Shown one piece after another: positions 11,300 to 37,378 of a DNA stretch of 37,438 nt. The stretch is from positions 1 through 37,438 of IMG/VR virus record IMGVR_UViG_3300027573_000076. One strand, 5' to 3'. Each line of letters begins with the position of its first letter. Position 1 is the first letter of the stretch. Position numbers and translations under genes: made by a program. The stretch comes from a virus. Under the pieces are notes generated by a model that saw only the letters and a program-made list of their open reading frames with translations, had not been told where the DNA came from and did not search any database.

Positions 11300-11301
11300 C
11301 T

Positions 11302-11631: not shown

Positions 11632-11638
11632 GAAAACT

Positions 11639-12178: not shown

Positions 12179-12181
12179 CCT

Positions 12182-12693: not shown

Positions 12694-12718
12694 CTGAAAA
12701 AGTAGTAAATTTGAGATT

Positions 12719-13444: not shown

Positions 13445-13457
13445 CTCACCTTTTCAG

Positions 13458-13473
13458 AACAAGTAAAGCAGAA
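13458..13473 (+). repeat. 16-bp direct repeat, right copy
   Basis: An exact copy of AACAAGTAAAGCAGAA. It lies in the 49-base gap between the convergent early and late transcription units. Together with the left copy it frames a 780-base segment containing only the RNA ligase. Confidence 0.75.
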
Positions 13474-13493
13474 GCCCCACAGAAGCAGCCCGG

Positions 13494-14488: not shown

Positions 14489-14489
14489 G

Positions 14490-15115: not shown

Positions 15116-15207
15116 CCGCCACCAGGTGGTTTCGTTGGAGGCTTAGGAGGGTTTTCAGAGCTTGTTGAAACTTTCGGTTTCTTAATCTTTTTCTTTGACT
15201 TTGCCAT
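15112..15207 (-). CDS. 31-residue basic, proline-rich peptide
   Basis: The sequence begins with a lysine-rich run (MAKSKKKIKKPK) and ends in PPKPPTKPPGGG. The stop overlaps the start of the next gene (ATGA). Its first 26 bases overlap the end of the preceding small membrane gene. Translation is plausible from the coupled layout. Confidence 0.4.
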   Translation of the reverse strand: MAKSKKKIKKPKVSTSSENPPKPPTKPPGGG

Positions 15208-15334
15208 TTTTGCGGTGTTTGTAGTTCGTTAACTCATTGCGGGATTTCATAAGCAGCCAATTCCAAACGAATATGGCCAGCCTATACCCGCCATAAGTTA
15301 CTGAAAATGCCACTAAGGCCGCTAGTATCTGCAT
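15182..15334 (-). CDS. 50-residue single-span membrane protein
   Basis: One N-terminal hydrophobic span (MQILAALVAFSVTYGGYRLAIFVWNWLL, about 3-28) is followed by a basic tail (YKHRKNGKVKEKD). The layout resembles small spanin or pinholin-like proteins in lysis cassettes. It lies six bases after the previous gene at 15341-15550. Confidence 0.5.
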   Translation of the reverse strand: MQILAALVAFSVTYGGYRLAIFVWNWLLMKSRNELTNYKHRKNGKVKEKD

Positions 15335-15340
15335 TGGTTT

Positions 15341-15550
15341 TTATTCTGCTTTCTCCGTGTCCTGCCTTAGATTTACAACTACATCATTATCGCGGATGGT
15401 AATTCGTTCCACTTTCGAGGCGTCTACATCAGCCCCGGCAATCACGAATGTTAAAATGTCTTTTTCTTCTTTAAGGATAGCGTTTTTCTTCGCTATGATT
15501 TCGTTGATAATCTTGATTTGGCCGGGTGATACTGGTATAATTTTTTCCAT
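15341..15550 (-). CDS. hypothetical small protein
   Basis: A 69-residue protein: a helical N-terminal half (QIKIINEIIAKKNAILKEEKD), then short beta strands (FVIAGADVDASKVERITI) and an acidic end. It lies two bases after the preceding gene. No motif was recognised; it may be a tail-fibre or lysis accessory protein. Confidence 0.5.
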   Translation of the reverse strand: MEKIIPVSPGQIKIINEIIAKKNAILKEEKDILTFVIAGADVDASKVERITIRDNDVVVNLRQDTEKAE

Positions 15551-15552
15551 AA

Positions 15553-15945
15553 TTAAATGTAATTTTTCCCAACCTTCACCAAGTAATCTGTTACTAGGTA
15601 GTTTATGTGACTGTCTGCGTTAAGATACCCGGCGACATTCTCGACAAGCGTCGAGCCTACAGCGTTGTCTTTAAAATTAAAGTCCCTCACTGTCATTCTC
15701 AACATCATAAATTCAATCAGGCTTGTGTCTGAACTTACGATAGGAAGATTATTTTGAATGTTACGCGCCGCTGCGATCATATACATTGCTTCCAATGACG
15801 CCGCAGACGTTTGGTCAACCTGATAAGCAACGCCACCCGTCGCTGTTCCGTCAAAAATCCTATTCACAAGATATACTCTAAATGCCACGCTGTCTGTGGT
15901 TTTCAGGGTATTCTTTTCCGCTTCTGTTAATGCTACTACTGCCAT
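15553..15945 (-). CDS. hypothetical structural/tail accessory protein
   Basis: A 130-residue protein with helical segments (TEAEKNTLKTTDSVAFRVYL, SLEAMYMIAAARNIQNNL) and a C-terminal region with many Asn and Val. It is located directly after the tail fibre, where fibre chaperones or accessory proteins often sit. No motif was recognised. Confidence 0.5.
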   Translation of the reverse strand: MAVVALTEAEKNTLKTTDSVAFRVYLVNRIFDGTATGGVAYQVDQTSAASLEAMYMIAAARNIQNNLPIVSSDTSLIEFMMLRMTVRDFNFKDNAVGSTLVENVAGYLNADSHINYLVTDYLVKVGKNYI

Positions 15946-15975
15946 TTTATTTCGGTCGTTTTAAAGTTTTATTTT

Positions 15976-17853: not shown

Positions 17854-17859
17854 ATTATT

Positions 17860-20766
17860 TTAATCATAACCTCCACCAAACCCAATCGTAAAACCCGAAC
17901 TAAACGAAGACCCGCCGCCACTCTCTGTATAATCTATCAGCTCCAAAAACTCACCGTTGAATCTGTTGTTCAATTCGTCAATGCTTCCACTGATCGGCAG
18001 ATACTTTCTGTCGTCATCATTCGTCATTGAAAAAACATCAAGGAAAGTAAACGGCCTGTTCGGGCTGTAAAGACTTCCTGTAATTTTCTGCCAGGATCTC
18101 GCATACTGTACCGCTAATTGTCTGGATAGAGTAAGATGTAAAGACGTTTCTTCCGCGACTCCATCACGCGCCCAAATTTCATAACCAACCCCGTTAACGT
18201 CTCTGAAGTAGCCAGCGTAAAGAATATCTGCCGATAAAATATTTGTCGTTTGTGATGAACTACCACTTATTCCAAAAAAGAAAAGTGTGGTGATAAGACT
18301 TTGATAACTTCCGTGTGTTACTTCTTTTTCAAGTATGGCTGTATTCCTTGACTCTGCTGGAACTTCACGAACGATTGTATCTACTGACTGTTCACCGTTG
18401 GTAAGGAACTCGCAGGTTACTTTATCAAGCCAGAAAGGCGTAGTAAAACTTCCTGTAAGGATTATTTTTGAAACCCTTGTTTTCCTGATCCACTGCCGGG
18501 GATTATCAACCGCATGGTAATCGTCGGGCCTTAAAATAGTCGGGCTGCTTTCTGCATCGGTGTTATCTTCAAGTTCATAGTATTCCAAGTAAGATGATCC
18601 GCCGGGTGTTGTTTGTACTTCTGAGCGTGTGCCTGTTGGTAAAATGAAATCACCCGCATCAAACGTAGGCCGCGCTTTAAGGTCAGCGTAAGCTATGTAT
18701 TCAGAATGATAAATGTAGCTGTGGTAAATACGGGCCGTTAAATCAAAGCCTGATGTAGCATCGGCGTGAGGTTGTGGCGCTGTAATTTCCGTTTCAAGGA
18801 ATTTATCGAACTCGGTGACAAATACCGTAATGATATTAACCGCTGTCGTCCATCCTCCGCCAGCGGTTAAATAGTAATCACCATACCGTACAATTATTCT
18901 TACTTTTTGGTACGGAATATTTATGGTTTGGGTGATGTACTCTAATGCTACATTGATCGTACCAACAACCGGGGCCGGGACTTTGTATCTGAATTTAAAC
19001 CTCAGACTATTCGCAGCGCCCATCTTCACCGTATACGTGTCGCTTAAAATGTAAGCCTCTCCGGTGTTTACTGTGATGTCATCCCCGCCGGTAATTTTCC
19101 AGGCTACGTTACTACTATCACCATCATTCACGCGTTCAAGTCCTGATGTCAGCACGTAGTCTGACTGAACTAATTGCCACCCGAAAGTGTCAACCTCACC
19201 TATGTAACCTATCCCTGTAACAAATCTATACTTCAACCGAAAATCACCGTTCTCGAAAATATTTTGTCGTAACCCGAGCTTGTAAAATATCCTCACCTTC
19301 CCGTAACCAGGACAAAGTTTCATGTAATGATTCACGTCAGATAGGACCGCTTTACCTGTTAAATCAGATCCAGGATTTACTATTTCTACAATTGGATCGT
19401 AACTGCTGTTGGATACGTAAACGCCATCAGAATCAAATTCCCGATAGTCGTACTCGTCGATCAATTCTTCAACTCTCAGAATATTCCATACAGCATTCTC
19501 TTGGAATAATCTTACACCAAACGGCTCAAGTATTTGCCTTAATACATAGTCACACGTAGGCGCTGCTTCGTGAATGTAATAAGTGTCAGTATCGACATAG
19601 GCTTGATCTAACGGGTCATCGGAATCAGTAGCGGCCATTGTTGTGGCGTAAAGATTGATTGCAACCCGTATGTTAATATTTAACCGCGTCTTTTTCAGAA
19701 TGAAGGCAATCAATTCAATCGCTTTCATACTCCCATTGAAAGGATCTCCACCATCTTGGATGAAAGGAAAATCTTTAAGTGATGGTAGGCCGTCAGTGGC
19801 GACAACTTTAACATAATACGGTGACGCCTTGTAATCTTCTTCGTACTGCTGTGGTAGAACTTTGTAAATTCCTTTCAGCACTCCATTGCGATAGAAGTAA
19901 GGCCGAAATTCTTCCGGATTGTTGGTGTAAATACTTTGAAATTGAAAGTTTGTTTCGCTGGTTAGTCCTATGGTTACACTTGTCGCTAATATAGTCTCAA
20001 ACTTATTTTCGCTTCCCTCTCCGCGAAGGTCACGCGTGAAAGCAATATCTGCCCCGATTACTTCCGTCACATCGCCTGTATAAGCGAACTTTGAAATGTC
20101 AATTCTGCAAACATGCCCGGCTAGTGAATCAAATTCAAGGCGGTTGAGCGGTCCGTATGCTTCAGTGAATCCGACCGTTACTAGAACGTTGGCGAAGCAG
20201 TTAAGAGCATCCCTAAAGTAAACACGGTATTGCCCAGGTAGTAGGCCTGAAATAGTAGCCACCCCTGCGACTACAGCGGTTCCTGTTCCGTCATTGTAAA
20301 CGAAATCAGAACCTAGTCGATACTGAACAAGCTCAGTACTTGATACACTCAAAGCTATTACTCCGTCTGATTCTGTTTCTCCTGTCGCTGGTGTTATTAC
20401 AGGCACCCCAATGATTTGTAGATTACAAGTAGGTGGATTAACCGCACATCCAGGGAAGTCAGGAAAACCAATCATCAACAAGTACGGAAATGACATACTA
20501 AGGTGAGCTGGTGAAATACTTGTCGTTCCATTACATACACCGTTAGGCACTAAGTACTGTTCTGTGTAAGTCGTTCCTGGAGCTATCGGAATGTCGTTAC
20601 CTGTAAAGATTTCGATTCCATTTTTAAAGACAGATAACCCGTCTGTAAATCCATGTGGTATTGGTGTGGCGTTATCGTAATAAAAAGTCAATTCATCGCC
20701 TGCCACAAACTCCCCGAAAGGGTTGGTGTCAATAAATTGGATTCTATGTACGAGTACGTCTGCCAT
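17860..20766 (-). CDS. large tail protein with SprB-repeat-like domain
   Basis: A 968-residue protein between the tape measure and the fibre, where baseplate or tail-tip proteins lie. About residues 113-198 form a beta-sandwich repeat ending GQYRVYFRDALNCFANVLVTV, close in pattern to the SprB/PKD-like repeats of Bacteroidota adhesins (G-x-Y-x-V-x-x-x-D-A-x-x-C). From about residue 205 (YGPLNRLEFDS) a long beta-rich part resembles tail-tip proteins. Regions with DYVLRQILEPFGVRLFQ suggest a structural hub. The last residues (FSSGFTIGFGGGYD) are Gly-rich. It probably joins the tail tip to the fibre and binds the host surface. Confidence 0.65.
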   Translation of the reverse strand: MADVLVHRIQFIDTNPFGEFVAGDELTFYYDNATPIPHGFTDGLSVFKNGIEIFTGNDIPIAPGTTYTEQYLVPNGVCNGTTSISPAHLSMSFPYLLMIGFPDFPGCAVNPPTCNLQIIGVPVITPATGETESDGVIALSVSSTELVQYRLGSDFVYNDGTGTAVVAGVATISGLLPGQYRVYFRDALNCFANVLVTVGFTEAYGPLNRLEFDSLAGHVCRIDISKFAYTGDVTEVIGADIAFTRDLRGEGSENKFETILATSVTIGLTSETNFQFQSIYTNNPEEFRPYFYRNGVLKGIYKVLPQQYEEDYKASPYYVKVVATDGLPSLKDFPFIQDGGDPFNGSMKAIELIAFILKKTRLNINIRVAINLYATTMAATDSDDPLDQAYVDTDTYYIHEAAPTCDYVLRQILEPFGVRLFQENAVWNILRVEELIDEYDYREFDSDGVYVSNSSYDPIVEIVNPGSDLTGKAVLSDVNHYMKLCPGYGKVRIFYKLGLRQNIFENGDFRLKYRFVTGIGYIGEVDTFGWQLVQSDYVLTSGLERVNDGDSSNVAWKITGGDDITVNTGEAYILSDTYTVKMGAANSLRFKFRYKVPAPVVGTINVALEYITQTINIPYQKVRIIVRYGDYYLTAGGGWTTAVNIITVFVTEFDKFLETEITAPQPHADATSGFDLTARIYHSYIYHSEYIAYADLKARPTFDAGDFILPTGTRSEVQTTPGGSSYLEYYELEDNTDAESSPTILRPDDYHAVDNPRQWIRKTRVSKIILTGSFTTPFWLDKVTCEFLTNGEQSVDTIVREVPAESRNTAILEKEVTHGSYQSLITTLFFFGISGSSSQTTNILSADILYAGYFRDVNGVGYEIWARDGVAEETSLHLTLSRQLAVQYARSWQKITGSLYSPNRPFTFLDVFSMTNDDDRKYLPISGSIDELNNRFNGEFLELIDYTESGGGSSFSSGFTIGFGGGYD

Positions 20767-24676: not shown

Positions 24677-25029
24677 ACCTCAGTATCCAATAAGTAGCAC
24701 ATCACATCTAAGTATCTTTCCCTTCCGCTGTTGTTGATCAACACTGCGGTGATCTCGTAAACCCGGCCATCCCTCACCAATCTGTTTTCCGTGTTGATAT
24801 CGGTCCGGTGATCAACTATAGCCTTCGATTGCTGCACGTATGTTATGCGGTCTGCGATCACCACGTTATCACCTTTCAGATCCACCCACTTTGCCGCTAC
24901 TGTTGGATCGGTGTTAACCTCAACCCATCCGGTAATTTTATCCTCGTTTACCAGGTTGCTTCCGAGAACCTTTTGGATGAAGGTTACCTCTCTGTCCATT
25001 TCGCCGCGCCTTATACTTGACTGTAGCAT
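24667..25029 (-). CDS. head-closure/head-tail joining protein
   Basis: A 120-residue protein. RGEMDREVTFIQKVLGSN, WVEVNTDPTVAAKWVDLKG and the end NNSGRERYLDVMC match the phage head-tail joining protein family (PF05521), which closes the head after packaging. The ATG at residue 11 is an alternative start that would avoid the 19-base overlap with the upstream glycosyltransferase. Confidence 0.7.
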   Translation of the reverse strand: MLQSSIRRGEMDREVTFIQKVLGSNLVNEDKITGWVEVNTDPTVAAKWVDLKGDNVVIADRITYVQQSKAIVDHRTDINTENRLVRDGRVYEITAVLINNSGRERYLDVMCYLLDTEVWT

Positions 25030-25664
25030 ACTGGTTTACCCTTGTCTTTGAATTTATCCCACGGCCAAATATTCACTTCGCTTTTAAAGTCCATCGCGAG
25101 CATACCTTCGTATCGAACCATGCGCGGGTAAACTTTGATGTGCGCTAAATTGTCCATCATTGTATCGTCCAGGCATTTGTTAAGTTCTTTCCGGTATAAA
25201 CTTCCACCTAACTGTTCAACTACATCGCGCCTGATACATTTACCAACTCCAAGTACTGAGTAGTCATAGTCAAATTCTCTTGCTTCCTTCGTGTGGAAAT
25301 TGACAAACGTTACCCGGCTTACACCGAAAAACTTTTCCTTACTTTCAAAGAACGGCTGATAGATTTCGTCAATCAGTTTCGTTTTAATCACGCTGTCGGA
25401 ATTCATCATCATCAGGTATTCCCAATCTTTGAACTCCAGGGCACGTTTGATCCCTTTGTTTATCTTGTCGCCTAAAGGGTTGTTATCAGCGTAAATCCAA
25501 TTAAAGCCGTAATCATCACAAAACTGTATGTACTCAGACTCACTTATCACACACAGAACTCGTAACTCATGTTTTGATTCTGCGATCAACTTTTTTAATT
25601 CATCAAAACAAAACTTCGTTACCTCAGGACGTTTCCACAACGGTATAACTATCTTAATCTTCAA
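25011..25664 (-). CDS. GT-A fold glycosyltransferase inserted in the connector genes
   Basis: A 217-residue protein. The N-terminus (MKIKIVIPLWKRPEVTKFCFDEL) is the classical GT2-type nucleotide-sugar binding start, and MMMNSDSV (85-92) stands where the DxD-like metal-binding motif lies. Residues about 141-172 have YSVLGVGKCIRRD and DDTMMDN, seen in acceptor regions. It would transfer a sugar from a nucleotide donor. It overlaps its neighbours on both sides (4 and 19 bases), so it is embedded in the structural operon. The target may be a virion protein; this is inference. Confidence 0.8.
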   Translation of the reverse strand: MKIKIVIPLWKRPEVTKFCFDELKKLIAESKHELRVLCVISESEYIQFCDDYGFNWIYADNNPLGDKINKGIKRALEFKDWEYLMMMNSDSVIKTKLIDEIYQPFFESKEKFFGVSRVTFVNFHTKEAREFDYDYSVLGVGKCIRRDVVEQLGGSLYRKELNKCLDDTMMDNLAHIKVYPRMVRYEGMLAMDFKSEVNIWPWDKFKDKGKPVCYSQV

Positions 25665-27672: not shown

Positions 27673-28029
27673 TTAGTTGATTTGTAATTGTTTTTCTGTT
27701 ATTGCCATCCTCATAGCGAGGCGTTTTTTCTTTGTTGTTTCGATTTGCTCGACTTGTTTTTCAGTGACTTTTCCCTGCACGTGATCGAGAACTTCCTGCA
27801 CCGTCATGTTCCTGATATCGCGCATGCTGATTGTTTCCGGCATGAAGCGCATGAGATAACCTAGCGCCGCGTCTGCATGGTGAGCAATTGAGCGCCCTAC
27901 AGCTTTAGGGTTGGAAGGAATGTTTACGATAGAGAACTCAAGTAATTCCTGTCCAGCGAAGTAGTATGTTTCGTTTTTACCGCCGCTTCTTTCTTCGCCT
28001 TCACCGTACTTACCATCACCTACCTCCAA
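27673..28029 (-). CDS. prohead protease, C-terminal part (split by frameshift)
   Basis: 118 residues from a TTG at 28029, in the -1 frame relative to the upstream half and overlapping it by ten bases. It contains ELLEFSIVNIPSNPKA, the C-terminal HK97-family protease motif with the third catalytic residue (Glu in LLEF), followed by a helical, charged end (VTEKQVEQIETTKKKR). Its beginning (VGDGKYGEGEERSGG) continues the logic of the first half directly. Fused in a -1 shift near 28025-28030 the two would form one complete protease. Confidence 0.65.
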   Translation of the reverse strand: MEVGDGKYGEGEERSGGKNETYYFAGQELLEFSIVNIPSNPKAVGRSIAHHADAALGYLMRFMPETISMRDIRNMTVQEVLDHVQGKVTEKQVEQIETTKKKRLAMRMAITEKQLQIN

Positions 28030-28394
28030 GATCCAACAGAGGTGGCGCGAAGGGTGCCGTTCAATACCTTTTGGAAAATCTTTTCTGCTAGCGGGTTGAT
28101 TTCTTTCGTCTCAAAGGTTACTGCACCGATAAGTTTTTCACCTTCAAGGAATGCGCGACCAGGGCCGAGTACGTCGTCAGGGTTTGGAGCGCTGCACATA
28201 TTTGCCCCGTAAACATTGTGCTGATATCCGACGATAGGGTTGAGGTTAAAATTTTCCAGCTCCCAACCTTTCATATTTAACACGGTCCTATGCCTGTCTT
28301 TGTCGGCAGACGAAATGATAAACTCAACCGTCCGGCTTTCCTCAGCTTTCTTCCGGTCGAACTCTCTTATATTTCCGAATGCAAATTTTTTCAT
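28020..28394 (-). CDS. prohead protease, N-terminal part (split by frameshift)
   Basis: 124 residues starting MKKFAFGNIREFDRKKAEES, the N-terminal part of an HK97-type prohead protease (peptidase S78/U35). Catalytic His59 is in GYQHNVYG and Ser119 in RATSVG. The frame then ends within five residues (GSWR-stop), so the Glu of the triad lies in the next, shifted frame. It would cleave the scaffold domain of the capsid protein. No canonical slippery heptamer was found at the junction. The start overlaps the portal stop by four bases. Confidence 0.8.
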   Translation of the reverse strand: MKKFAFGNIREFDRKKAEESRTVEFIISSADKDRHRTVLNMKGWELENFNLNPIVGYQHNVYGANMCSAPNPDDVLGPGRAFLEGEKLIGAVTFETKEINPLAEKIFQKVLNGTLRATSVGSWR

Positions 28395-29671
28395 GCTGCT
28401 TTGTCCTGTTGTGGTTGTGATTGTTGTTTTCCGAGCATCTCCACCGGCATCATTGTTCCATTCATGAAGAACTTATCGATTGACTCGGTGCCTTCCATTG
28501 GCCATCCTTCCGCCTCGCGTGGCTCCGATGGTTTGAGTATTCCGGTCTGCACCGCTGAATTGTATACCTCGTACCTGGTTTTGATATCGCCTTTTATCAG
28601 GTCGTCCAGGTTGAATTGAGACATAAATTTTCCGCGCTCTCCTTCAAAGAATAGTTTTTTGTCTATTTCCTGCTGGAATCGGCTTGCCCACGGAACGGCT
28701 ACATCTTTCGCAAATGATCTTTCTTGGCTGTCGATGTTGGAGTAATTCGCGTCATCCAGGATCCCGATTTTGTGCGGAGGCATCCGGAACCATCCCGCGA
28801 TTTCAGAACGGTCGAATTTCTTCGACTCCAAAAACTGTGCATCATTCTGTGGGATGGTGAGCTGCTGGTATTTAACCCCTTCTTCAAGGACGATTGTTTT
28901 GAATCTGTTTTTCGCTCCGCTGTGTTCTTTCTCGAAAGACTCTTTCAGGTTTTTTTGCTCCTTTCCTCCAAGTGTACCTGGTGTCATTAGTATACCGGAA
29001 GCCTTCCCACCATTGGTATAAAAAGCCCCTTCGTGCTGAGTTTTTACGATTGAATTGGCTAGTGTCTCGCGCTGCACCTGCGCTGTGCTGAGTCCGAGGA
29101 TCCCGTTTGTGCTGAAGTTCTTCAGGTGGATCATGTCGTCGGACATGACTATCTCCGCCTTTCCTTCTTTGTTCCACTCATAGTAGAGTTTTCCGCGCTC
29201 GGTAATCTTTGGCGTTATATCGTAAGCCGGAATGAGATGGATCTCGGTGGCGTTGGCGAAGCGGTCGCGTTTGATCCTGGAATAGCCATTACCCCATGAA
29301 GCGGCCCATACCACCATAGCAAAAACCCATTCGAATCGGTTTACGTCAGGCGATGGTTGCGCATGAAGTAGCCAGTAATTTGGGTGTGAAGTGTTTGCGC
29401 GGGTAGCCTTGCCGACTTTCTCGACTACTTCAAGGTCCATCGAGGCCATTGTCTCACCGAGAACTTTTAAGCAGGAGTAGTAAGCGCCGACGCCCAAGGC
29501 TTTTTCTTCATTTACGACGATGTTCGCGGTAGTTTTTTCCGCGCCCATTGCGTCCATGAAATGAGAAAGAGAAGTAGATGGGTTTTCCAACGAAGCACGT
29601 AGCTCCGGATAGAAATAGGAAAGCGTATGCCTTATAAACCCATTTTTCACCTTTGATTTTGGAATAACCAA
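28391..29671 (-). CDS. HK97-type portal protein
   Basis: 426 residues from a TTG at 29671; no ATG is nearby and the upstream frame ends in a stop a few codons before. The motifs YYSCLKVLGETMASMDLEV, WGNGYSRIKRDRFANATEI and DDMIHLKNFSTNGILGLS, and the later KFDRSEIAGWFRMPPHKIG, are HK97 portal hallmarks. It forms the ring through which DNA is packaged. It is coupled to the downstream protease by a four-base overlap. The Gln-rich end is disordered. Confidence 0.85.
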   Translation of the reverse strand: MVIPKSKVKNGFIRHTLSYFYPELRASLENPSTSLSHFMDAMGAEKTTANIVVNEEKALGVGAYYSCLKVLGETMASMDLEVVEKVGKATRANTSHPNYWLLHAQPSPDVNRFEWVFAMVVWAASWGNGYSRIKRDRFANATEIHLIPAYDITPKITERGKLYYEWNKEGKAEIVMSDDMIHLKNFSTNGILGLSTAQVQRETLANSIVKTQHEGAFYTNGGKASGILMTPGTLGGKEQKNLKESFEKEHSGAKNRFKTIVLEEGVKYQQLTIPQNDAQFLESKKFDRSEIAGWFRMPPHKIGILDDANYSNIDSQERSFAKDVAVPWASRFQQEIDKKLFFEGERGKFMSQFNLDDLIKGDIKTRYEVYNSAVQTGILKPSEPREAEGWPMEGTESIDKFFMNGTMMPVEMLGKQQSQPQQDKAA

Positions 29672-29729
29672 AGGTCCTTTTGATAACTAAGGTTTTAGGT
29701 TAAAGACTTTAACTTTCATAATTGGGCAT

Positions 29730-29756
29730 AAAAAAGCCCGGTTTGTGGGCCGGGCT
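29730..29756 (-). terminator. rho-independent terminator for the lipoprotein gene
   Basis: On the minus strand AGCCCGG (29756-29750) pairs with CCGGGCT (29741-29735) around an eight-base loop and is followed by a T-run of six (29735-29730). It lies just after the lipoprotein stop. Transcription may be reduced here before the portal gene, which would then need its own promoter or read-through. Confidence 0.75.
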
Positions 29757-29778: not shown

Positions 29779-30153
29779 TTATTTGATCAGTTCGTCAAAA
29801 AAGGCTTCGCGCTCGTAGGTGTTCAGGTCTATAATCACCACTTTATTTTTCACGAACAGACTGCCGAGTTCATTAAATATGCGCACCTCCATCGCGCGTG
29901 ATGGGTTGAGGATGGCCGGGCTGGCGTAAATGTAGTTCTGCCCATGAATAACATGCGCATTGGCTACCGCCTGCGCTTTCGTTGTGGTTTCAGCGATCAG
30001 GTTATTAGTCGGGATGGTTACACCGCGTTCTGCGGCCTCGGCTATAAAGGTGGTAACATAATTCTCAAGCTCAGGGGCTACTGAATAAGAGGTTTCGTTT
30101 TCTTCGCAGGCGAAGGCCACAAGAAGGAGGGCCGCAAAAATGTATTTTTTCAT
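29779..30153 (-). CDS. lipoprotein, degenerate metallopeptidase-like
   Basis: A 124-residue protein with a lipoprotein signal (MKKYIFAALLLVAFAC, Cys16). The mature part includes RIFNELGSLFV, which resembles the HELGH zinc site of Bacteroidota lipoprotein peptidases with both His lost (Asn and Ser), so enzyme activity is unlikely. It is flanked by a 45-base gap on one side and its own terminator on the other, like a 'moron' expressed from the prophage. It may act at the outer membrane, for example in superinfection exclusion; this is inference. Confidence 0.7.
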   Translation of the reverse strand: MKKYIFAALLLVAFACEENETSYSVAPELENYVTTFIAEAAERGVTIPTNNLIAETTTKAQAVANAHVIHGQNYIYASPAILNPSRAMEVRIFNELGSLFVKNKVVIIDLNTYEREAFFDELIK

Positions 30154-30198: not shown

Positions 30199-30801
30199 TC
30201 AGCCAACTTCCACCGCTTTTCCTTTAATACACATGTGCCTGTACCATTCATAGGGATAAATAGCAATTTTTCCGGCGATATATTCGCGCATCTGGCTGGT
30301 TTGCTGCAGTCGTAAGGTGCCTCTATATTCGTTTACCCACGGTGTTTCCCCGCTTTTTAAGCAGTCCATAAGGAAGGATTTGCGCCAAATTGAGGGCTGA
30401 TGACTGACTAAATACTTGGAATTTGGCTCGAAAACCATACCATCTAGTGTGTAAAACGAGGCTTTTGGGCTAATTTGGAGGCGAAAAAGGCCGTATTTCA
30501 TAACAATCCTACATAGCTCGGCTAAATCTGGCGGTTTTTGGGTCGGCCAGTGGTCTTCCTGCATGTATAGGACGTAATCTGACGGGATCTGCTCGAGTAA
30601 TCGCCGTAGCCGGTCGGACCATTCACCAGGGCCGGAATAGAGCATTTTGAACGGTGGGCCTACTGTGTTTTCTGTTGGAATGTCTGATCCGAAGTAACAT
30701 TTATATCCTTCCAGGTTCCAATTTTCGCGGAATGCCTTGTAATACCCTGGCCATAGGTGCGCGTAGCCGTCGAAACTATGAACGAGTAGAGAGAGTGTCA
30801 T
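30199..30801 (-). CDS. glycosyltransferase-like protein (LPS-type)
   Basis: A 200-residue protein. WSDRLRRLLEQIPSDYVLYM and the acidic motif QEDHWPT (metal/nucleotide-sugar site, as EDxxPT in Bacteroidota sugar transferases) indicate a GT-A type enzyme. The N-terminal SLLVHSFDGYAHLWPGYY is family-like. It is the last gene of the sugar-modification cassette. It overlaps the next upstream gene by four bases, which shows one operon. Confidence 0.7.
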   Translation of the reverse strand: MTLSLLVHSFDGYAHLWPGYYKAFRENWNLEGYKCYFGSDIPTENTVGPPFKMLYSGPGEWSDRLRRLLEQIPSDYVLYMQEDHWPTQKPPDLAELCRIVMKYGLFRLQISPKASFYTLDGMVFEPNSKYLVSHQPSIWRKSFLMDCLKSGETPWVNEYRGTLRLQQTSQMREYIAGKIAIYPYEWYRHMCIKGKAVEVG

Positions 30802-31118
30802 TCGGAAACCATTTTTCCACTAAAAATAGTGCCTCGCTTAACCCCGTCGAATAACTTATATGTTTCTGCGTCGCTTGTGCTGATGCTCTTTAAAGCCGGA
30901 TGATCGACAACCTTGAAATAAATAGTACCTTTTCGGCGGGTGGTGTAGACAAGTTGAAAAGACAAATCCGCGTTACCTGGCACATACAAGCCCTCAAATG
31001 TAAATTCTTTATGTTCTGTCGGTTCGGTGAAGGTAGATTTTTCCATAGCCACAGGATATGGAGCCTCCGTTAATACACCGATTCTTTTTCCGTCAATACA
31101 AATTTCTAAGTTTTCCAT
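30798..31118 (-). CDS. hypothetical beta-rich protein in the cassette
   Basis: A 106-residue protein with alternating strands (LEICIDGKRIGVLTE, FTFEGLYVPGNADLSF, GTIYFKVVDH) and a charged end. The layout suggests a small beta-sandwich, perhaps a capsid-decorating or carbohydrate-binding protein. No motif proves this. It sits six bases after the methyltransferase and overlaps the next glycosyltransferase gene. Confidence 0.5.
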   Translation of the reverse strand: MENLEICIDGKRIGVLTEAPYPVAMEKSTFTEPTEHKEFTFEGLYVPGNADLSFQLVYTTRRKGTIYFKVVDHPALKSISTSDAETYKLFDGVKRGTIFSGKMVSE

Positions 31119-31124
31119 TGTGAA

Positions 31125-31823
31125 TCACAATTTAATAAATTCATCCCATGTGATCAGGTTGAGTAGTTCTTTTCTGTTTTCGTTGAAAAAGTCCCAATTC
31201 AAATACGAATATGGTTTATAGTATACATCATTAAGGCCCTTTGTATTTGAGTATACCAAGCATCCGTTATCAATATCCACTGTATATGTGCAGTGTTTTT
31301 CTAAACCAACCGCAAACTTATAAACGTCACCATTCCAATGGCCCCGAGCGGTTGGCCGTGGCACTATGGTATGTTCTTCCTGTAATGGGTTACAGTCATG
31401 TAAAACTATGAACCCATTCGGTGAAAGGATATTTAGCGCGTTCTCGAAATCTTTCTTTACCTGCTCGGCGGTATGGAGGCCATCGATGAAGATAAGATCT
31501 GCGTTCCATCCGAGTAACTCATTGTCTTCTATCCACCTTTGATCACTCCACCATCGATTGAAAAACTCATCGGACGTCATACAAAAAGTAGCCCTAGCGT
31601 TTGGATCGGGGTCTACCCCAATTTTATGTACCCCGCAAAGAATCTTATCGAAATTCAATTCCGGAACCTGCACACCTATTTCTAAATATCTTCTTAGGCG
31701 ATATTTTTCTACAAGGTGGTTGAGTAAATCTGTTCTGTTAGGCATACGGTTTGTTCCTTTTATCGTTTCAATTACTTTACCCACAGCTTCATCGACTGTT
31801 ATTTTTTTCCTGAGTTCTCCCAT
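31125..31823 (-). CDS. class I SAM-dependent methyltransferase
   Basis: A 232-residue protein. Motif I-like LEIGVQVPELNFD, then VDPDP, and LIFIDGLHTAEQV with NGFIVLHDCNPL follow the Methyltransf_24 (FkbM/TylF-like) plan. Such enzymes add methyl groups to sugars or other small acceptors. Within this cassette a sugar O-methyltransferase is the natural reading. A second methyltransferase of the same general type lies just upstream. Confidence 0.7.
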   Translation of the reverse strand: MGELRKKITVDEAVGKVIETIKGTNRMPNRTDLLNHLVEKYRLRRYLEIGVQVPELNFDKILCGVHKIGVDPDPNARATFCMTSDEFFNRWWSDQRWIEDNELLGWNADLIFIDGLHTAEQVKKDFENALNILSPNGFIVLHDCNPLQEEHTIVPRPTARGHWNGDVYKFAVGLEKHCTYTVDIDNGCLVYSNTKGLNDVYYKPYSYLNWDFFNENRKELLNLITWDEFIKL

Positions 31824-31942
31824 AGTTTGTAAATTATTTCCGCTGCTTTTTTACGGCTCATACCGGAATCACAGCACAGCTTCATAGACGAATCAATTTT
31901 ATCCTTAGTGACGCCTAATAATTTCAAGGCTTCATCTTCCAA
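31799..31942 (-). CDS. possible 47-residue helical protein
   Basis: From a TTG at 31942 the frame gives KLLGVTKDKIDSSMKLCCDS, then SRKKAAEIIYKLWENSGKK. It overlaps the following methyltransferase start by 25 bases and lies eight bases after the preceding stop. It fills a 126-base gap. It lacks a canonical start, so it may instead be a remnant or a mere gap. Confidence 0.3.
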   Translation of the reverse strand: MEDEALKLLGVTKDKIDSSMKLCCDSGMSRKKAAEIIYKLWENSGKK

Positions 31943-31949
31943 GCCTGTT

Positions 31950-32555
31950 TCATTTCTTTATCCTTAATATGCCAATACCTCCCCACCAAGATGCTTTTCT
32001 TTCCTCCAATGTGCCGAGAGTATACCCTTTTAATTCGTGCATTTCAAGTAAAGTAAATCCTAAATCTTTCACCGCTGACAGGCTGCAGGTTTTCATTTTG
32101 CTTAGGTCCCAATCGTCACACACGAAAGTAAATTCCTTAGCCAGCGCCCCGGCGAAGTGCATTAACGCATTGTATTGAGCTTCGGCGGTGTGTGCACCGT
32201 CGTAAAAGTAAAGGTCAATCGGCTGCTTTATTTTTTTAATGTTAAAGCTGAACGCGTCACCTTCATGAAACTCAAATTTAGCATCTTTGGTATTATCGAA
32301 AAACTCCTGCCTTGTGCCGGGTGACATAATGAAGTTATCAATAGCCACCGCATAAACTGGATTATTATACAGCGCCGCGAGTAGTGTTGAACCTTTGAAG
32401 CATCCTACCTCCAAATATGCTTTAGATTGAGCGACAAGATTATTCAGCAGGTGCCACACTTTAGGGCTGCTGAGTCCATCAAGTTTATGGATAACTTCTG
32501 CCGTTAGTTTCGATTTGCCGAAGTTGGCGCTGTCTATTGCTGTTTGAATGTTCAT
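31950..32555 (-). CDS. class I SAM-dependent methyltransferase
   Basis: A 201-residue protein. YLEVGCFKGSTLLAAL is motif I, AIDNF and GDAFSF follow, and LYFYDGAHTAEAQYNAL with FVCDDWD is the metal/SAM-associated part of Methyltransf_24 enzymes. It resembles the neighbouring methyltransferase in architecture but not closely in sequence, so the two may act on different positions. A sugar O-methyltransferase is the likely reading. Confidence 0.7.
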   Translation of the reverse strand: MNIQTAIDSANFGKSKLTAEVIHKLDGLSSPKVWHLLNNLVAQSKAYLEVGCFKGSTLLAALYNNPVYAVAIDNFIMSPGTRQEFFDNTKDAKFEFHEGDAFSFNIKKIKQPIDLYFYDGAHTAEAQYNALMHFAGALAKEFTFVCDDWDLSKMKTCSLSAVKDLGFTLLEMHELKGYTLGTLEERKASWWGGIGILRIKK

Positions 32556-32797
32556 TCTTTTACAAATTTTATGAATTTAGGTTTATCGTTTACGGACTTG
32601 AAAATAGCTGTGTACTTAGGCGACGCGCATTCAATAGTTTCGTCGAATAAGTTCGATGTGCCGTGAAATTCAACTACCCCAAAGCCTCTTTGCTCTTTGG
32701 CTTCAAGTTTAAAAACAGAAGCAAGTTCTATTTCTATTAAAGGCCAATTCCTATCGGCCATAATTTCATTTGTCACATTGAAGTGTCCGCGTCTCAT
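32552..32797 (-). CDS. hypothetical small protein in the cassette
   Basis: An 81-residue beta-rich protein (MRRGHFNVTNEIMADRNWP, IELASVFKLEAKEQ, FGVVEFHGTSNLFDE). It is one base from the sulfotransferase-like gene and overlaps the methyltransferase by four. No motif was recognised. Confidence 0.5.
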   Translation of the reverse strand: MRRGHFNVTNEIMADRNWPLIEIELASVFKLEAKEQRGFGVVEFHGTSNLFDETIECASPKYTAIFKSVNDKPKFIKFVKE

Positions 32798-32798
32798 T

Positions 32799-33215
32799 TT
32801 ATTTAAAGGAATTACATTGAATTAATTCTACTGGTTCAAATCCTAAAGTAGTGAGCATGTCGTCTAAATCAGATTGCAAAAACCCAAACCTTATAACGTA
32901 GTCGGGGGTAGCGTCCAAAAAATATGCTTCTGGTTTGAGCATTAGACTTATGTTATCAACCCCCTTTCTTTTAACTTCAGCTACCAATTCATCTAAAGTC
33001 ATTCCGTGTTTTGGCCCATGCCCGTATGCGCTTTTTATCCTGTCGTCGTATGGCCTGGTGATCGTGAATAGTTTATAGTCAGGATAATTTTTTCGGAACC
33101 ATGACGCGGGAAGGTGTCTATCAACTATCACCATTTTTAGCGCATTGCAGACGCTCACCCCGCCCGTGCGCGGGATATGGCAAAACGCTAATTTTCTCTT
33201 ATGGCATACCGGCAT
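32799..33215 (-). CDS. sulfotransferase-family protein
   Basis: A 138-residue protein. CHIPRTGGVSV (residues 12-22) is the PAPS 5'-phosphosulfate loop, and FTITRPYDDRIKSAY (50-64) holds the Arg/Ser that bind the 3'-phosphate; this is the Sulfotransfer_2 pattern. It is short compared with the usual 200-300 residues, so acceptor parts may be reduced. It would add sulfate to a carbohydrate hydroxyl. It lies one base from the GT-D gene in the operon, suggesting a sulfated sugar. Activity is unproven. Confidence 0.7.
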   Translation of the reverse strand: MPVCHKRKLAFCHIPRTGGVSVCNALKMVIVDRHLPASWFRKNYPDYKLFTITRPYDDRIKSAYGHGPKHGMTLDELVAEVKRKGVDNISLMLKPEAYFLDATPDYVIRFGFLQSDLDDMLTTLGFEPVELIQCNSFK

Positions 33216-33920
33216 TTATACCTTCAGTTTGTGGTGATAACTACGAGACTTCACCCCGCAAAATGGATCGAACACGCTGCCCACATCAATAAAAGTGTGA
33301 GGAAAGTCGGCAAAGTCGTCAATCAATACTTCACTCATCATAGATGCCGCGAACAATACGACCGCGTTGTAGGCTCCATCAACGTGAAATTCTACCTGCT
33401 CCCTGATCGATTTGTACTGTAGCCAGCAGTCTTTGTAAAGAGTTGTGATGTGAACACAGTCGAAAAGTTTTGAAAGGTGGGGAGGCCCGACCATTATAAC
33501 ATACCTTCCAAGTAGCGCGTCGGTAAATTTCTGTAGCTCCCCGTCAATGCTTGCGCTATGGAGTACGTCAGAGTTTACCCAATTGATATTTAACCCGCTG
33601 CAAAATTCTTTTATCTGTTCTGACCGCGCGTAAGTGGGCGACATAGATAACGGCTGAATACCTACGGTGTATTTTGGTTCCGCTAACACCACCCTGCGTA
33701 AGGCTTCGCCGAGGTCAGGAAAGTATTTATGCCCGTCGCAGTTCTGGCCGAGCTTGTTAAAGATGCAATTCCATTCACCATCCCCAAACCTGGAAAACTT
33801 AAAATTCTTGTAGCTTTTTAAGTCGTCGATCATTTTGGCGTAAGTAATTTTCTCATCCTCTACACCTTCCATGAACCACCGGCCGGTAGCCTCGTCCCTG
33901 TACGCTTTAATGCTGTCCAT
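33216..33920 (-). CDS. GT-D fold glycosyltransferase (DUF1792-like)
   Basis: A 234-residue protein. FSRFGDGEW carries the D-x-E motif of GT-D fold glycosyltransferases (PF08759), and TFIDVGSVFDPFCGVKSR is the matching C-terminal signature. Structural members of this family transfer glucose onto sugar chains of cell-surface glycoproteins. The gene abuts the sulfotransferase-like gene directly and overlaps the upstream glycosyltransferase by 14 bases. Confidence 0.7.
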   Translation of the reverse strand: MDSIKAYRDEATGRWFMEGVEDEKITYAKMIDDLKSYKNFKFSRFGDGEWNCIFNKLGQNCDGHKYFPDLGEALRRVVLAEPKYTVGIQPLSMSPTYARSEQIKEFCSGLNINWVNSDVLHSASIDGELQKFTDALLGRYVIMVGPPHLSKLFDCVHITTLYKDCWLQYKSIREQVEFHVDGAYNAVVLFAASMMSEVLIDDFADFPHTFIDVGSVFDPFCGVKSRSYHHKLKV

Positions 33921-34596
33921 GAATTCGTCTTATTGTGTTATACATCTCGTTTCTGTGAGGTTTGTGTAAATGGGGTATATGAATAAATTCAGTTCGTTGG
34001 GTGTAGTTCCACTCCATACAATAATGCGCGTTAGGCTGTTTCCAGTTCGTATGTCCGAAAGCTACCTGATCCCGCGAGCTGTATTTTAATACCTGTTCCC
34101 ACCATGCTTCACAGAATTTAACGGTGTTGCGTTCCTTTTGACGCATGAGTATACCGGAAGAAATTAGACCGTTATTTTTCGGGAGGCCCATATCTTCGTA
34201 GTCTGCATACTGCCTGGCTAACTTACCTGGATCATCCTTTTTTCCCTTCATGCAGGAAATAATATCTGTGTAAATGCAGTCATCAAACGGGTGCCGAATC
34301 GTTGTGAAGGGTGCCTGAAATCTTCTCCACCACCTACTGAGGTCGATGTTTATGAAGAATGTTGCGTCTATCCACATTGAGAACTCAGTTTCGATACACT
34401 TATGGAAGTTGATTTTATACCAACGCGCTGTTTTAACCGGACCGCAGTCCATCACAGGAACTTTTATTATCTCCCACGTCTCGCTTTTAAGGTCCTGATC
34501 GGTGAAGCAGACGTAACGCCAGTGCTGGTTTTTTACGAAAGGCTCTTTTAGATCGTCGTAGTTTCCGAAGATGGCGGTAAAAACTGTCTTTGTCAT
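33907..34596 (-). CDS. DUF616/TOD1-MUCI70-type glycosyltransferase
   Basis: A 229-residue protein. VFTAIFGNYDDLKEPF at the N-terminus, WRYVCFTDQDL, and MWIDATFFIN (acidic IDA motif in place of DxD) match the DUF616-type glycosyltransferases. The C-terminal HYCMEWNYTQRTEFIHIPHL is also typical. The start overlaps the stop of the preceding GT gene by four bases. The donor sugar cannot be read from sequence. Confidence 0.7.
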   Translation of the reverse strand: MTKTVFTAIFGNYDDLKEPFVKNQHWRYVCFTDQDLKSETWEIIKVPVMDCGPVKTARWYKINFHKCIETEFSMWIDATFFINIDLSRWWRRFQAPFTTIRHPFDDCIYTDIISCMKGKKDDPGKLARQYADYEDMGLPKNNGLISSGILMRQKERNTVKFCEAWWEQVLKYSSRDQVAFGHTNWKQPNAHYCMEWNYTQRTEFIHIPHLHKPHRNEMYNTIRRIHGQH

Positions 34597-35129
34597 TTAA
34601 GATGATCCTTGTTAGATAGTCCATTCATAAGCCTGTACGTATGCCACACGTATACACTTTCCATCCGGTAAATTTTTTTACCGCGCTCCAAAACATTTCC
34701 GGAGAAATCATTATCGACACCTAAGCACTTGCCGGACTCGCTGAACTTAATTTCGTTCCATGTTTTTTTACTGATCAGCATTAGAAACCCGCTGATTACG
34801 TGCTTTATTTCACTGACCATCACCCCAAATCTTTTCTGATTGTAGGCGAGCTGAACATGATACTCAACATTTGTGTTATCGCTTATATGCCCGTTGAGTA
34901 GTTGATCGGTAGATAGTGGATGAATACGATTTGTGTAGCAGGTAAAAATTCCAGCTTCCGGATAGTTTCGTGTATACTCGTACATTAAGTTGATTGCGTC
35001 ATAGGTCAGCAGTAAAACATCGTGATCCATGAAGCAAACCCAATCATTTTCACCAACACCTCCGAACGCCTGGTTGTACGCCTTGCCTAGATTCTTATCT
35101 TCTGAAAATGGAATTTTAACGTGAATCAT
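34593..35129 (-). CDS. GT-A glycosyltransferase (GT2-like)
   Basis: A 178-residue protein. KNLGKAYNQAFGGVGENDWV precedes CFMDHDVLL, whose DHD is the metal-binding DxD. The end, GVDNDFSGNVLERGKKIYR followed by VWHTYR, matches the C-terminal part of GT2-like enzymes. It is shorter than the usual 220-300 residues and starts at the level of the donor-binding motif, so the N-terminal strands may be missing or rearranged. The start overlaps the upstream gene by four bases. Confidence 0.75.
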   Translation of the reverse strand: MIHVKIPFSEDKNLGKAYNQAFGGVGENDWVCFMDHDVLLLTYDAINLMYEYTRNYPEAGIFTCYTNRIHPLSTDQLLNGHISDNTNVEYHVQLAYNQKRFGVMVSEIKHVISGFLMLISKKTWNEIKFSESGKCLGVDNDFSGNVLERGKKIYRMESVYVWHTYRLMNGLSNKDHLK

Positions 35130-35383
35130 TTTTTATGTCTGTATGAATAGCTCGCCTTATAACTTCCGTGATCTGAGTACCTACTTTTTCCAAAATAATG
35201 TTCATGCACTTCTTCGGCTTTGAAATAGGCATCGGTTAAACTGATATCCTCTTTCCGGAACGACATCACCAATTCATCGAAACTTTCCGCGCTCATGGAG
35301 GCATTTTTAAGAAGGTCCTTTGATATTGTCACTATATCGCATTTGCTTCCGTCTGTATGTATGAAGGTGTATTTTATCCCCAT
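35126..35383 (-). CDS. hypothetical small protein, first gene of the cassette
   Basis: An 85-residue soluble protein, charged, with a histidine/tyrosine-rich end (EEVHEHYFGKSRYSDH). It starts one base after the terminase stop and overlaps the first glycosyltransferase by four. No motif was recognised. Confidence 0.5.
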   Translation of the reverse strand: MGIKYTFIHTDGSKCDIVTISKDLLKNASMSAESFDELVMSFRKEDISLTDAYFKAEEVHEHYFGKSRYSDHGSYKASYSYRHKK

Positions 35384-35384
35384 C

Positions 35385-36965
35385 TTAGTCGATTGTTATT
35401 ACGCCGCGCTCACTGTAAACTGATTTCTTCGGCTTGACTTCTATCCAATTACGCACTGCCATTGCAAGGCTTACCCACGGATCAATCTTTTTATAGTCCT
35501 TTGGTTTTACGAATTTCTCCCTGAGTTCGTCATCGGTTTTTACTAAAATATTCTCAAGGCACCACGTAACCACTGCGTTACCGTTATGAATAAACTGCGC
35601 CGCTTTAATTTTCTCTTCAATTTTTTTTATTCCTACACTCAAGCCGTAACCTTGCTTTTCAATTATGGTTTCTATATCTAATTCATCCTGTAATTCAACG
35701 GCCATGTCAACCGTATTCCATTCATCATAACCCATTATAACTATTGAAAATTTGTCGCTGACCTTAATAATCCGATCCTTAACCCCATACGGGCCAACGT
35801 GTGTCCCTGCAACAATTTCTATGAACCCTAATTCCTCCCATTTATCATAAGGGATGTTGAATTTATCCTTTGATGTTTTCGCGCTCGCTTCGCTAATCCA
35901 CAGAAACCAGAATGGAATTAATATATCGGAATCCTCAAACAGAACGCAAAGAGAACTTATATCTTGAGTGCTGGACCTATCAACACCAAGCCAGCAGGGT
36001 TGCCCTATAAAGTCATCAATCTTTAAATCTTTATTCTGTAATGATGTCCATAGTTCGGTTTTCAGCCAACGTGTTTCTGAGGATGTCCACTGCCCGAGCC
36101 GTAACCGCCGGAAGGTATTTTCACCGGAAACATCATTCTTAACTTCGTTAGCTTCCGTTCTGATTGTGCGCCTTAAATTCTCTGAGTAGTCATATAGAGG
36201 GTTCGCTTTTCGCCATGTATCTTCGGAATAGATATCGTCATCTGGTGAGGACTCATATATCACACACCAAAAAGAATCGTCATTTATTGTTCCGCTTAAT
36301 ATTTTTTTTGAGTACTCGTAACGATTGAAACAGATTGAAAGCAGGTCGCTCCCTGGTGTTGTAATCACCCACATGATCGGGTTTGTACGTTGCGCCATTG
36401 ACGTCTTCAGGTTGTCGTGAAGGTCCCTGTTTTTCGCTACGTGTAGTTCATCATAGAAAACGCCGTGTGAATTTTTGCCATGTTTAGTGTCTGACTTAGC
36501 GGTGAGTTTTTGAATGTAGGAGTGTTTGTATGTTACTGAGCTTTGAAACCGCTTCATTGTTCTATTCAACTGAGGGTCCAATTCAATCATCTTTGACGCC
36601 GCGTTGAACAGCAGCCCGGCCTGCTCATCGTCACCTGCGCAGTTGTAAATCTGCGCCCCTTTCTCACCGTCATTCCCCAACATAGCAAGTTCGTTGGCTG
36701 CCATCATTGTGGTCTTTGCGTTCTTTTTCGGAGTCTGGATGTACACGTAATTGATCATCCGGCGACCGCCTTTCTTCTCCTTTAACCCGTAGACCGGGCG
36801 AATAATCTCGTCCTTAAAAACATCAGGGAGTATAAGCGGTTTTCCGTAAAGGTCGCCCTCCACATGACGGCAGTGCTTCTCTATAAAACGAATCTTCTCA
36901 GCGGCCGCAGCCTCATCATAGTAATATTTGCTTTTAAGTTGTTCGAAACGTTCTATAGGTGTCAT
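35385..36965 (-). CDS. terL: terminase large subunit
   Basis: A 526-residue protein. The ATPase domain has a variant Walker A, TPKKNAKTT (78-86), and Walker B GVFYDELH (168-175). The nuclease domain starts CWLGVDRSSTQDISSL with the first metal-binding Asp at about 329. Further acidic positions near MGYDEWNTVD and the C-terminal region complete an RNase H-like fold of the Terminase_1 family. It is the motor and cutter of DNA packaging. The start overlaps the small subunit gene by four bases. Confidence 0.9.
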   Translation of the reverse strand: MTPIERFEQLKSKYYYDEAAAAEKIRFIEKHCRHVEGDLYGKPLILPDVFKDEIIRPVYGLKEKKGGRRMINYVYIQTPKKNAKTTMMAANELAMLGNDGEKGAQIYNCAGDDEQAGLLFNAASKMIELDPQLNRTMKRFQSSVTYKHSYIQKLTAKSDTKHGKNSHGVFYDELHVAKNRDLHDNLKTSMAQRTNPIMWVITTPGSDLLSICFNRYEYSKKILSGTINDDSFWCVIYESSPDDDIYSEDTWRKANPLYDYSENLRRTIRTEANEVKNDVSGENTFRRLRLGQWTSSETRWLKTELWTSLQNKDLKIDDFIGQPCWLGVDRSSTQDISSLCVLFEDSDILIPFWFLWISEASAKTSKDKFNIPYDKWEELGFIEIVAGTHVGPYGVKDRIIKVSDKFSIVIMGYDEWNTVDMAVELQDELDIETIIEKQGYGLSVGIKKIEEKIKAAQFIHNGNAVVTWCLENILVKTDDELREKFVKPKDYKKIDPWVSLAMAVRNWIEVKPKKSVYSERGVITID

Positions 36966-37378
36966 TTCAATAAACTCAGTTCCGCCCCTTCATCCCTTTT
37001 TATCGATGGCACCCGGTACAGATCTGCCGGGGTCAACCCAAACTTTGCGCATAACCGCTCCACTGTTTTCGTGTTCATATCCATAATCTTCTCCCACTTG
37101 CCATCCTCTGGGTTGGTGATCAATTTCTTTTCCGCTTCCAGGGTCCGGTAGTATGCCCACGCAAGCCTGCGCATGGGTATGACCGTGGCCTTAGTCATGT
37201 ACCCTACCGGCTTCAGCACGTTCCCGATATCCCGCCAAATCACCTGCGCATCAAGGGGCCAATCTGAAGGAACGTTAGGCACCTTCTCGAAAGCCTCGTA
37301 TGAAACCGTAGGTAAAACCTCTTTCGATGGCTCAAAAGTGCCCTGCATTTCTTTTACTTCCTGCGAAATTGGCCTCAT
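36962..37378 (-). CDS. terS: terminase small subunit (P27-like)
   Basis: A 138-residue protein. The helical middle (VIWRDIGNVLKPVGYM, MRRLAWAYYRTLEAEKKLIT, TVERLCAKFGLTPADLYRV) matches the P27 family of small terminase subunits, which recognise the packaging site on DNA. It precedes terL with a four-base overlap, the usual order. It is the first late gene in the window. The 60 bases before it (37379-37438) hold no further gene or a clear promoter. Confidence 0.8.
   Translation of the reverse strand: MRPISQEVKEMQGTFEPSKEVLPTVSYEAFEKVPNVPSDWPLDAQVIWRDIGNVLKPVGYMTKATVIPMRRLAWAYYRTLEAEKKLITNPEDGKWEKIMDMNTKTVERLCAKFGLTPADLYRVPSIKRDEGAELSLLK

Follow-up and report, generated by a model that had tools for sequence, protein, structure and literature searches.

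Few cultured phages have been shown to have glycosylated virions. In chlorovirus PBCV-1, virus-encoded glycosyltransferases (GTs) and methyltransferases glycosylate the capsid protein in the cytoplasm, and the first GT-D enzyme described works in the cytoplasm on the glycan attached to the Fap1 adhesin. For mycobacteriophages, the accounts of Freeman et al. 2023 given in PMC12619734 and PMC12691614 describe glycans observed on capsid and tail-tube subunits. Here we analyze a cassette of minus-strand genes at positions 30199-35383 of a 37,438-base virus record from IMG/VR (IMGVR_UViG_3300027573_000076; the whole stretch is called the window, and position 1 is its first base). We consider it probable that this cassette supplies the greater part of a virion-glycosylation pathway encoded by the phage, with stepwise cytoplasmic glycosylation of a presumed virion-protein target and variable methyl or sulfate capping of the glycan.

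The likeness to the mycobacteriophages is phage-encoded virion glycosylation, which in the window is predicted from its genes, and the difference lies in the machinery: here it would be a multi-enzyme cassette, with a DUF616 transferase, a GT-D transferase, an orphan GT-A transferase and methyl- and putative sulfotransferases placed between the terminase gene terL and the portal gene of an uncultured lineage. PBCV-1 likewise encodes both GTs and methyltransferases, but it is a eukaryotic algal virus, not known to be related, whose glycan has been solved. Of the features of GtrABC-type serotype conversion, a GtrA flippase was not found in 7 records, and the cassette proteins have no strongly hydrophobic segments that would point to membrane-bound GTs; linkage of GT genes to virion genes, a feature of phage virion glycosylation systems, is found both here and in related phages. 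Glycosylated phage particles are already known, and as far as we could find this enzyme set has not previously been tied to them; our literature search on DUF1792 or DUF616 in phages returned nothing relevant.

A cultured relative, Cellulophaga phage phi18:1 (Helsingorvirus), carries a gene (gp40) similar to the cassette methyltransferase that we call MT2, adjoining a DUF616::GT2 fusion (gp41) whose halves have as counterparts two adjacent separate genes in the window. Both lie in the head gene block, between the head morphogenesis and the protease and major capsid protein (MCP) genes, and several of their neighbors carry annotations as virion proteins that come from mass spectrometry. Phage phi18:1 differs in that our searches found in it no match to GT-D, GT-A or the sulfotransferase-like protein and in that gp40 is annotated as a DNA methyltransferase. 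A 2025 study of this phage left the role of gp41 open, with lipopolysaccharide (LPS), DNA or another biomolecule as suggested substrates; it also counted one structural-module methyltransferase among the DNA methyltransferases (PMC11946311).

A conserved gene core between terL and portal

The block fills exactly the open reading frames (ORFs) between the terminase large subunit gene terL (35385-36965; PF20441 2.7e-31, PF03354 5.5e-26) and the portal gene (28391-29671; PF04860 4.8e-86), all on the minus strand, and the limits given in an earlier note on this DNA, made from the sequence alone, coincide with ORF boundaries. The intervening 11 to 12 short genes are transcribed in the order 85-amino-acid (aa) protein, GT2-like GT, DUF616 transferase, GT-D transferase, sulfotransferase-like protein, 81-aa protein, methyltransferase MT1, 47-aa ORF, MT2, 106-aa protein and 200-aa GT-A-fold protein. 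The core genes are as follows.

35126-35383, minus strand: core gene 1, 85-aa protein with no assigned role, present in 12/12 related contigs; no Pfam or PHROG match
34593-35129, minus strand: core gene 2, GT2-like glycosyltransferase; phrog_14179 1.6e-26, C-terminal half of phrog_26101 5.7e-17
33907-34596, minus strand: core gene 3, TOD1/MUCI70 (DUF616) glycosyltransferase; PF04765 6.5e-11, N-terminal half of phrog_26101 1.5e-15
33216-33920, minus strand: core gene 4, predicted GT-D-fold glycosyltransferase with invariant R-x-G-D-G-E, from profile and predicted structure
31125-31745, minus strand: core gene 5, methyltransferase MT2; PF13578 2.4e-11, 11-sequence alignment
30199-30801, minus strand: core gene 6, predicted GT-A-fold glycosyltransferase (200 aa) with invariant QEDH, from the fold of an AlphaFold2 model

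We retrieved relatives from IMG/VR by a search with terL alone, blind to the cassette, which yielded 11 other contigs. All 11 of these carry the ordered five-gene core (85-aa protein, GT2-like, DUF616, GT-D, MT2) between terL and portal, and since they were chosen by terL only, the arrangement is not a matter of chance. In a further contig, L017, the portal and the cassette are kept although terL is only 24% identical. The GT-A gene is present in most relatives and missing from L009 and L013, and the L012 contig terminates inside it.

In the pair L021 and L018, the ratio of nonsynonymous to synonymous substitution (dN/dS) comes to about 0.09 in the GT-A gene, with values near 0.17 in MT2 and 0.06 in the portal gene; such low values indicate purifying selection on all three. 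The window and L006 are mostly saturated at silent sites, and no ratio was taken from that pair. We note that endonuclease-type ORFs of HNH/AP2-like appearance, judged by eye, interrupt the cassette at L016:6165-6590, L017:8946-9437 and L007:3652-3888.

Glycosyltransferases of the core

The earlier note had proposed two GT-A-like transferases, a DUF616-type transferase and a GT-D (DUF1792) transferase with a D-x-E motif, and all four were upheld. The DUF616 gene lies over the Pfam cut-off (42.5 versus 21.4 bits) and matches positions 147-290 of the 314 in PF04765. The GT2-like proteins share 43-73% pairwise identity across 12 phages.

The GT-D gene scores 13.5 bits with PF08759 (DUF1792) against a cut-off of 27 (E value, 0.063) and so does not reach the gathering score. 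Its 12-member profile matches streptococcal GalT1/DUF1792 chains in the PDB (3.5e-4 to 9e-4), and its AlphaFold2 model (predicted local distance difference test [pLDDT], 92.7) aligns with DUF1792 structures at Z scores of 17.9-18.3 (5v4a, 18.3; 4phr, 18.2), with 2.9 Å over 198 residues to 5v4a and the next non-GT-D entry at a Z score of 10.9. The D-x-E metal motif, D47-G-E49, is invariant in 12 sequences. Judged by its predicted structure, we call the product a divergent GT-D-fold enzyme and do not name it a PF08759 member, the gathering score being a threshold and no biochemical feature. It resembles streptococcal GalT1 in fold (Z score of 18) and in the D-x-E motif; it differs in being phage-borne and below the Pfam cut-off, with 13-17% identity in structural alignments.

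No family match was obtained for the 200-aa protein by sequence in Pfam, PHROG or a PDB profile search. Its AlphaFold2 model (pLDDT, 89.8) has TarS (4.7e-8) and SpsA (1.4e-7) among its top Foldseek matches and gives structural alignments with Z scores of 12-15, up to 15.1 (B4GALNT1), so that a GT-A glycosyltransferase fold is clear in the predicted structure. PDB sequence searches with profiles of the GT-A, GT2-like and DUF616 proteins, and of the head-gene GT described below, returned nothing useful.

Methyltransferases and the variable slot

The segment between GT-D and MT2 differs among relatives. In the window it holds the following genes, listed together with two small ORFs that flank MT2.

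32799-33215, minus strand: short sulfotransferase-like protein (138 aa), variable slot; phrog_3347 1.2e-4, motifs HIPRTGG and RPYxDRIxS
32552-32797, minus strand: 81-aa protein, variable slot; no homologue found
31950-32555, minus strand: methyltransferase MT1, variable slot, in 6/12 related contigs; PF13578 2e-7, phrog_1458 3.1e-21
31799-31942, minus strand: possible 47-aa ORF, doubtful as a gene; no homologue found
30798-31118, minus strand: variable 106-aa protein; no homologue found

The slot is empty in L018 and L004, contains MT1 alone in L014, L007, L016, L012 and L017, the sulfotransferase-like gene with MT1 in L006 as in the window, the sulfotransferase-like gene alone in L013, and other methyltransferases in L015 and L008. 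No strongly hydrophobic segment typical of a membrane span was found in any cassette protein.

Both genes named earlier as S-adenosylmethionine-dependent methyltransferases match PF13578, and the MT2 profile gave a weak match to a methyltransferase domain when compared with PDB sequences. MT2 probably starts at 31745 and not where its ORF opens, at 31823, since the alignment with its relatives begins only at residue 26-30. The names given in PHROG, and the annotation of phi18:1, would make MT1 and MT2 DNA methyltransferases, an assignment that we disfavor because motif IV of DNA methyltransferases is absent from both (no [DNS]PP[FYW] or PC[QN] occurs in any MT2 sequence).

The assignment of the sulfotransferase-like protein is weak. 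Motifs for binding 3'-phosphoadenosine 5'-phosphosulfate (PAPS) are kept in 3/3 homologues (window, L006 and L013), single substitutions aside, with HIPRTGG (HIPRTAG in L013) at the 5'-phosphosulfate-binding (5'-PSB) site and R-x-Y-x-DRI-x-S at the 3'-phosphate-binding (3'-PB) site, and a distant homologue at L059:396-929 is a PF03567 Sulfotransfer_2 protein (1e-8). The window protein itself, however, has no Pfam match, and its phrog_3347 match spans only residues 5-27, a stretch of 23 residues. These sequence features weakly suggest that the product of 32799-33215 is a sulfotransferase.

A further glycosyltransferase among the head genes

The gene set proposed in the earlier note was not complete, having missed one GT away from the cassette.

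25011-25664, minus strand: second-site GT2-like glycosyltransferase, between the head-tail connector and the head completion protein; PF00535 2.7e-4, just under the cut-off

This gene occupies an identical position, at 51-72% identity, in every relative whose contig reaches it, and its alignment contains invariant IPLWKR and NSD motifs. Among 7 phages, its pairwise identities track those of the cassette DUF616 gene (Spearman rho, 0.74; Mantel p, 0.0012) and are unrelated to those of the neighboring connector (rho, -0.03) and MCP (rho, 0.01), which is suggestive of a glycosylation pathway that reaches beyond the terL-portal block to this GT.

Related enzyme sets in other phages

In five other phages, related sets adjoin genes for packaging, head or tail; one of these phages is the cultured phi18:1, and two have nucleotide-sugar enzymes in the set. 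In L085, where the cluster lies between terS and a terL-like gene that precedes the portal, its members include a GDP-mannose 4,6-dehydratase and a DegT-type aminotransferase. That of L055 precedes tail genes including the tape measure protein and contains an epimerase, an aminotransferase, an FkbM methyltransferase and a sulfotransferase-like gene. L059 has sulfotransferase, GT-D and MT2 genes and then portal, protease and MCP, and in L025 a DUF616 fusion, GT-D, GT-A and MT2 come after a baseplate-wedge-like gene. The homologue of MT1 in cyanophage S-SSM2 has mostly hypothetical or metabolic neighbors and is uninformative.

It is possible, though on balance we lean slightly against it, that there is a widespread and hitherto unrecognized class of phage virion-glycosylation module, with a fixed backbone set of DUF616, GT-D, orphan GT-A and GT2 enzymes, an exchangeable methyl or sulfate slot and, in some phages, sugar-nucleotide synthesis. 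Such modules would diversify particle glycans as a phage counterpart of O-antigen variation.

Three further observations concern virus contigs with relatives of these families. ORFs of about 1,400 aa containing the orphan GT-A domain occur in L026-L036; L047 (a phage contig) carries, at 4700-19700, a long series of sugar-related or GT-like ORFs including GT-D and GT-A relatives; and an ADP-ribosyltransferase domain (PF03496 5.2e-20) is encoded at L057:710-2179, upstream of a DUF616-MT2-GT2-GT-D cluster.

A proposed pathway for virion glycosylation

We hypothesize that the soluble GTs (GT2-like, DUF616, GT-D, GT-A and the GT2-like enzyme of the head genes) would work in sequence in the host cytoplasm, drawing nucleotide sugars from the host and building a short sugar chain on a protein of the head or tail itself, either ahead of particle assembly or while it proceeds. 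The glycan would then be capped or charged by MT2, joined in some phages by MT1, by other methyltransferases or by the sulfotransferase-like protein. With the core fixed and the tailoring genes confined to a variable slot, phages of the lineage probably have one backbone in common and differ in its terminal decoration. Direct transfer onto protein fits better than lipid-linked assembly and export, since there are no strongly hydrophobic segments, no GtrA-type flippase and no oligosaccharyltransferase among the matches obtained. We infer the virion-protein acceptor from gene position, and along with it we conjecture the sequence of steps, which sugars are used and how the phage would benefit, through particle shielding or altered adhesion. 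Of the earlier proposal that the set could build, methylate and sulfate a glycan in connection with the virion genes, the fixed core, the head-gene GT and the linkage to virion genes in other phages speak in favor; the glycosylated virion protein itself is the conjectural part.

If this pathway exists, a whole environmental phage lineage would have particle glycans as a fixed trait made by several enzymes, their terminal groups varying from phage to phage, and gp40 of phi18:1, annotated in cultured phages as a DNA methyltransferase, would be a glycan-tailoring enzyme. The availability of phi18:1 in culture makes virion glycosylation directly testable.

Several points weigh against this interpretation. 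There are no nucleotide-sugar genes in the cassette, which must therefore use host sugars, and both the acceptor protein and the glycan are deduced from gene content and position. In the window phage a candidate terminator-like hairpin divides the cassette from the portal. Cassette genes other than GT-D do not follow portal or MCP in pairwise identity (rho versus portal, 0.01 for the GT-A gene and 0.09 for MT2), and the co-variation of the head-gene GT with DUF616 comes from 7 phages and 11 comparisons, which makes it suggestive only. On the earlier note's condition that homologues away from structural operons would speak against its proposal, the outcome is divided: whole sets lie by virion genes in the five phages above, but a homologue of the GT2 gene belongs to a cluster of four GTs next to replication genes (DNA primase and polymerase) in the 151-kb Pseudomonas phage PsgM04F, a DUF616 relative lies within a sugar cluster of a large cyanophage, GT-D occurs unaccompanied by other cassette genes in many large phages, and single GT-A relatives are likewise found away from virion genes. 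Position alone does not fix the substrate, since such single-gene relatives occur away from virion genes in large phages. Inspection of the MCP alignment by eye revealed no Ser/Thr-rich, acceptor-like C-terminal tail.

The earlier note had itself offered modification of host LPS or of phage DNA bases as alternatives, and we retain both at low probability, the key requirements of each (GtrA and a thymidylate-synthase-type hydroxymethylase, respectively) not having been found in 7 records. Modification of the host surface (LPS, capsule or a surface glycoprotein), for instance to block superinfection or aid progeny release, is unlikely. Methyl- and sulfotransferases together with GTs are common in surface-polysaccharide loci, a lipoprotein-like gene (29779-30153) adjoins the cassette, and LPS modification is among the options listed for phi18:1 gp41 (PMC11946311). 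Yet the search for a GtrA flippase (PF04138) in the 7 records was negative while control genomes gave matches, the cassette proteins have no membrane-spanning segment, the genes sit among late virion genes, and the GT-A family has no relative in a scan of genome contigs, with no prophage or cellular copy seen.

We next consider an acceptor outside the virion, which might be a small molecule, a cytoplasmic carbohydrate or a protein of the host; the late-gene position would then be historical. The deduction of the acceptor from position, the core 85-aa protein with no assigned role and the lack of correlation of GT-A and MT2 with the portal all leave room for this, but the repeated siting by packaging, head and tail genes in different phages and the presence of a GT within the head genes make it improbable.

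DNA hypermodification requires a hydroxylated base. Least probable of all is that the set hypermodifies phage DNA bases against restriction, as in T4, RB69 and 5-methylcytosine-TET (5mC-TET) phages, given that a thymidylate-synthase-type hydroxymethylase (PF00303) is absent from the 7 records (some of them fragments; controls positive in 9/14), that no oxygenase family was found among the larger early proteins scanned, that MT1 and MT2 lack motif IV, and that the cassette is located with head genes and not replication genes. A search for the Tet/JBP dioxygenase (PF12851) gave no match, but none in the controls either, and so speaks neither way. We keep this explanation in play because the window has a partial C5-cytosine methyltransferase-like ORF (7227-7904, plus strand, matching only the N-terminal third of PF00145) and because of the GT2 homologue beside the replication genes of PsgM04F; phage GTs can act on DNA (PMC13216743; Pyle 2024, cited there).

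Transcription and neighboring features

On the minus strand, terS and terL are followed by the block and then by portal, prohead protease, MCP, connector, head completion and tail genes. Further features around the block are as follows.

36962-37378, minus strand: terminase small subunit (terS); PF05119 2.4e-5
29779-30153, minus strand: lipoprotein-like 124-aa protein, with no homologue in related contigs; probably outside the cassette
29735-29756, minus strand: candidate terminator-like hairpin with a T run, in the gap between cassette and portal; L006 and L008 likewise have hairpins with T runs in this gap

Junctions within the block include several 4-base overlaps and one of 14 bases, and most remaining gaps are of 7 bases or less, in agreement with the earlier description of genes that overlap by about four bases or abut. 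Of the single operon proposed with the packaging and head genes, the packaging side is supported by tight spacing that runs from terS to the 200-aa gene, whereas the connection to the head genes is put in doubt by the terminator-like hairpin ahead of the portal and by the T-run hairpins at that site in L006 and L008. The hairpin (29756-29735) is itself a candidate only, since terminator-like sites are no commoner in the region than in shuffled sequence (11 versus 9.8). The cassette may be transcribed together with the terminase genes and apart from the head genes.

The lipoprotein-like ORF (MKKYIFAALLLVAFACEEN...), with the cassette on one side and the hairpin on the other, is a candidate superinfection-exclusion protein. 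An inverted repeat of the type ACCTTTGG...CCAAAGGT, at about 29640-29680 on the minus strand, overlaps or directly precedes the portal start, with counterparts in the portal gap of L006, L009, L013 and L018. It is possibly a translational control element, and translation of the portal may begin several codons downstream of 29671. The prohead protease (27673-28394, minus strand) is read as two overlapping ORFs through a one-base difference and is a single open frame in L018, L006, L014, L007, L013 and L008. The split probably reflects an error of assembly or sequencing, or else a recent mutation.

Megablast of the block and tblastn of the GT-D, GT-A and sulfotransferase-like proteins gave no match in cultured phages. 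In GTDB genomes, searched for a host or prophage, the GT-A profile found no relative and the portal profile found relatives of 29-34% only. Few Shine-Dalgarno-like sites and the Cellulophaga link hint at a host among Bacteroidota. The early gene region is closed by an RNA ligase gene (12719-13444, plus strand; PF09414 7.7e-17).

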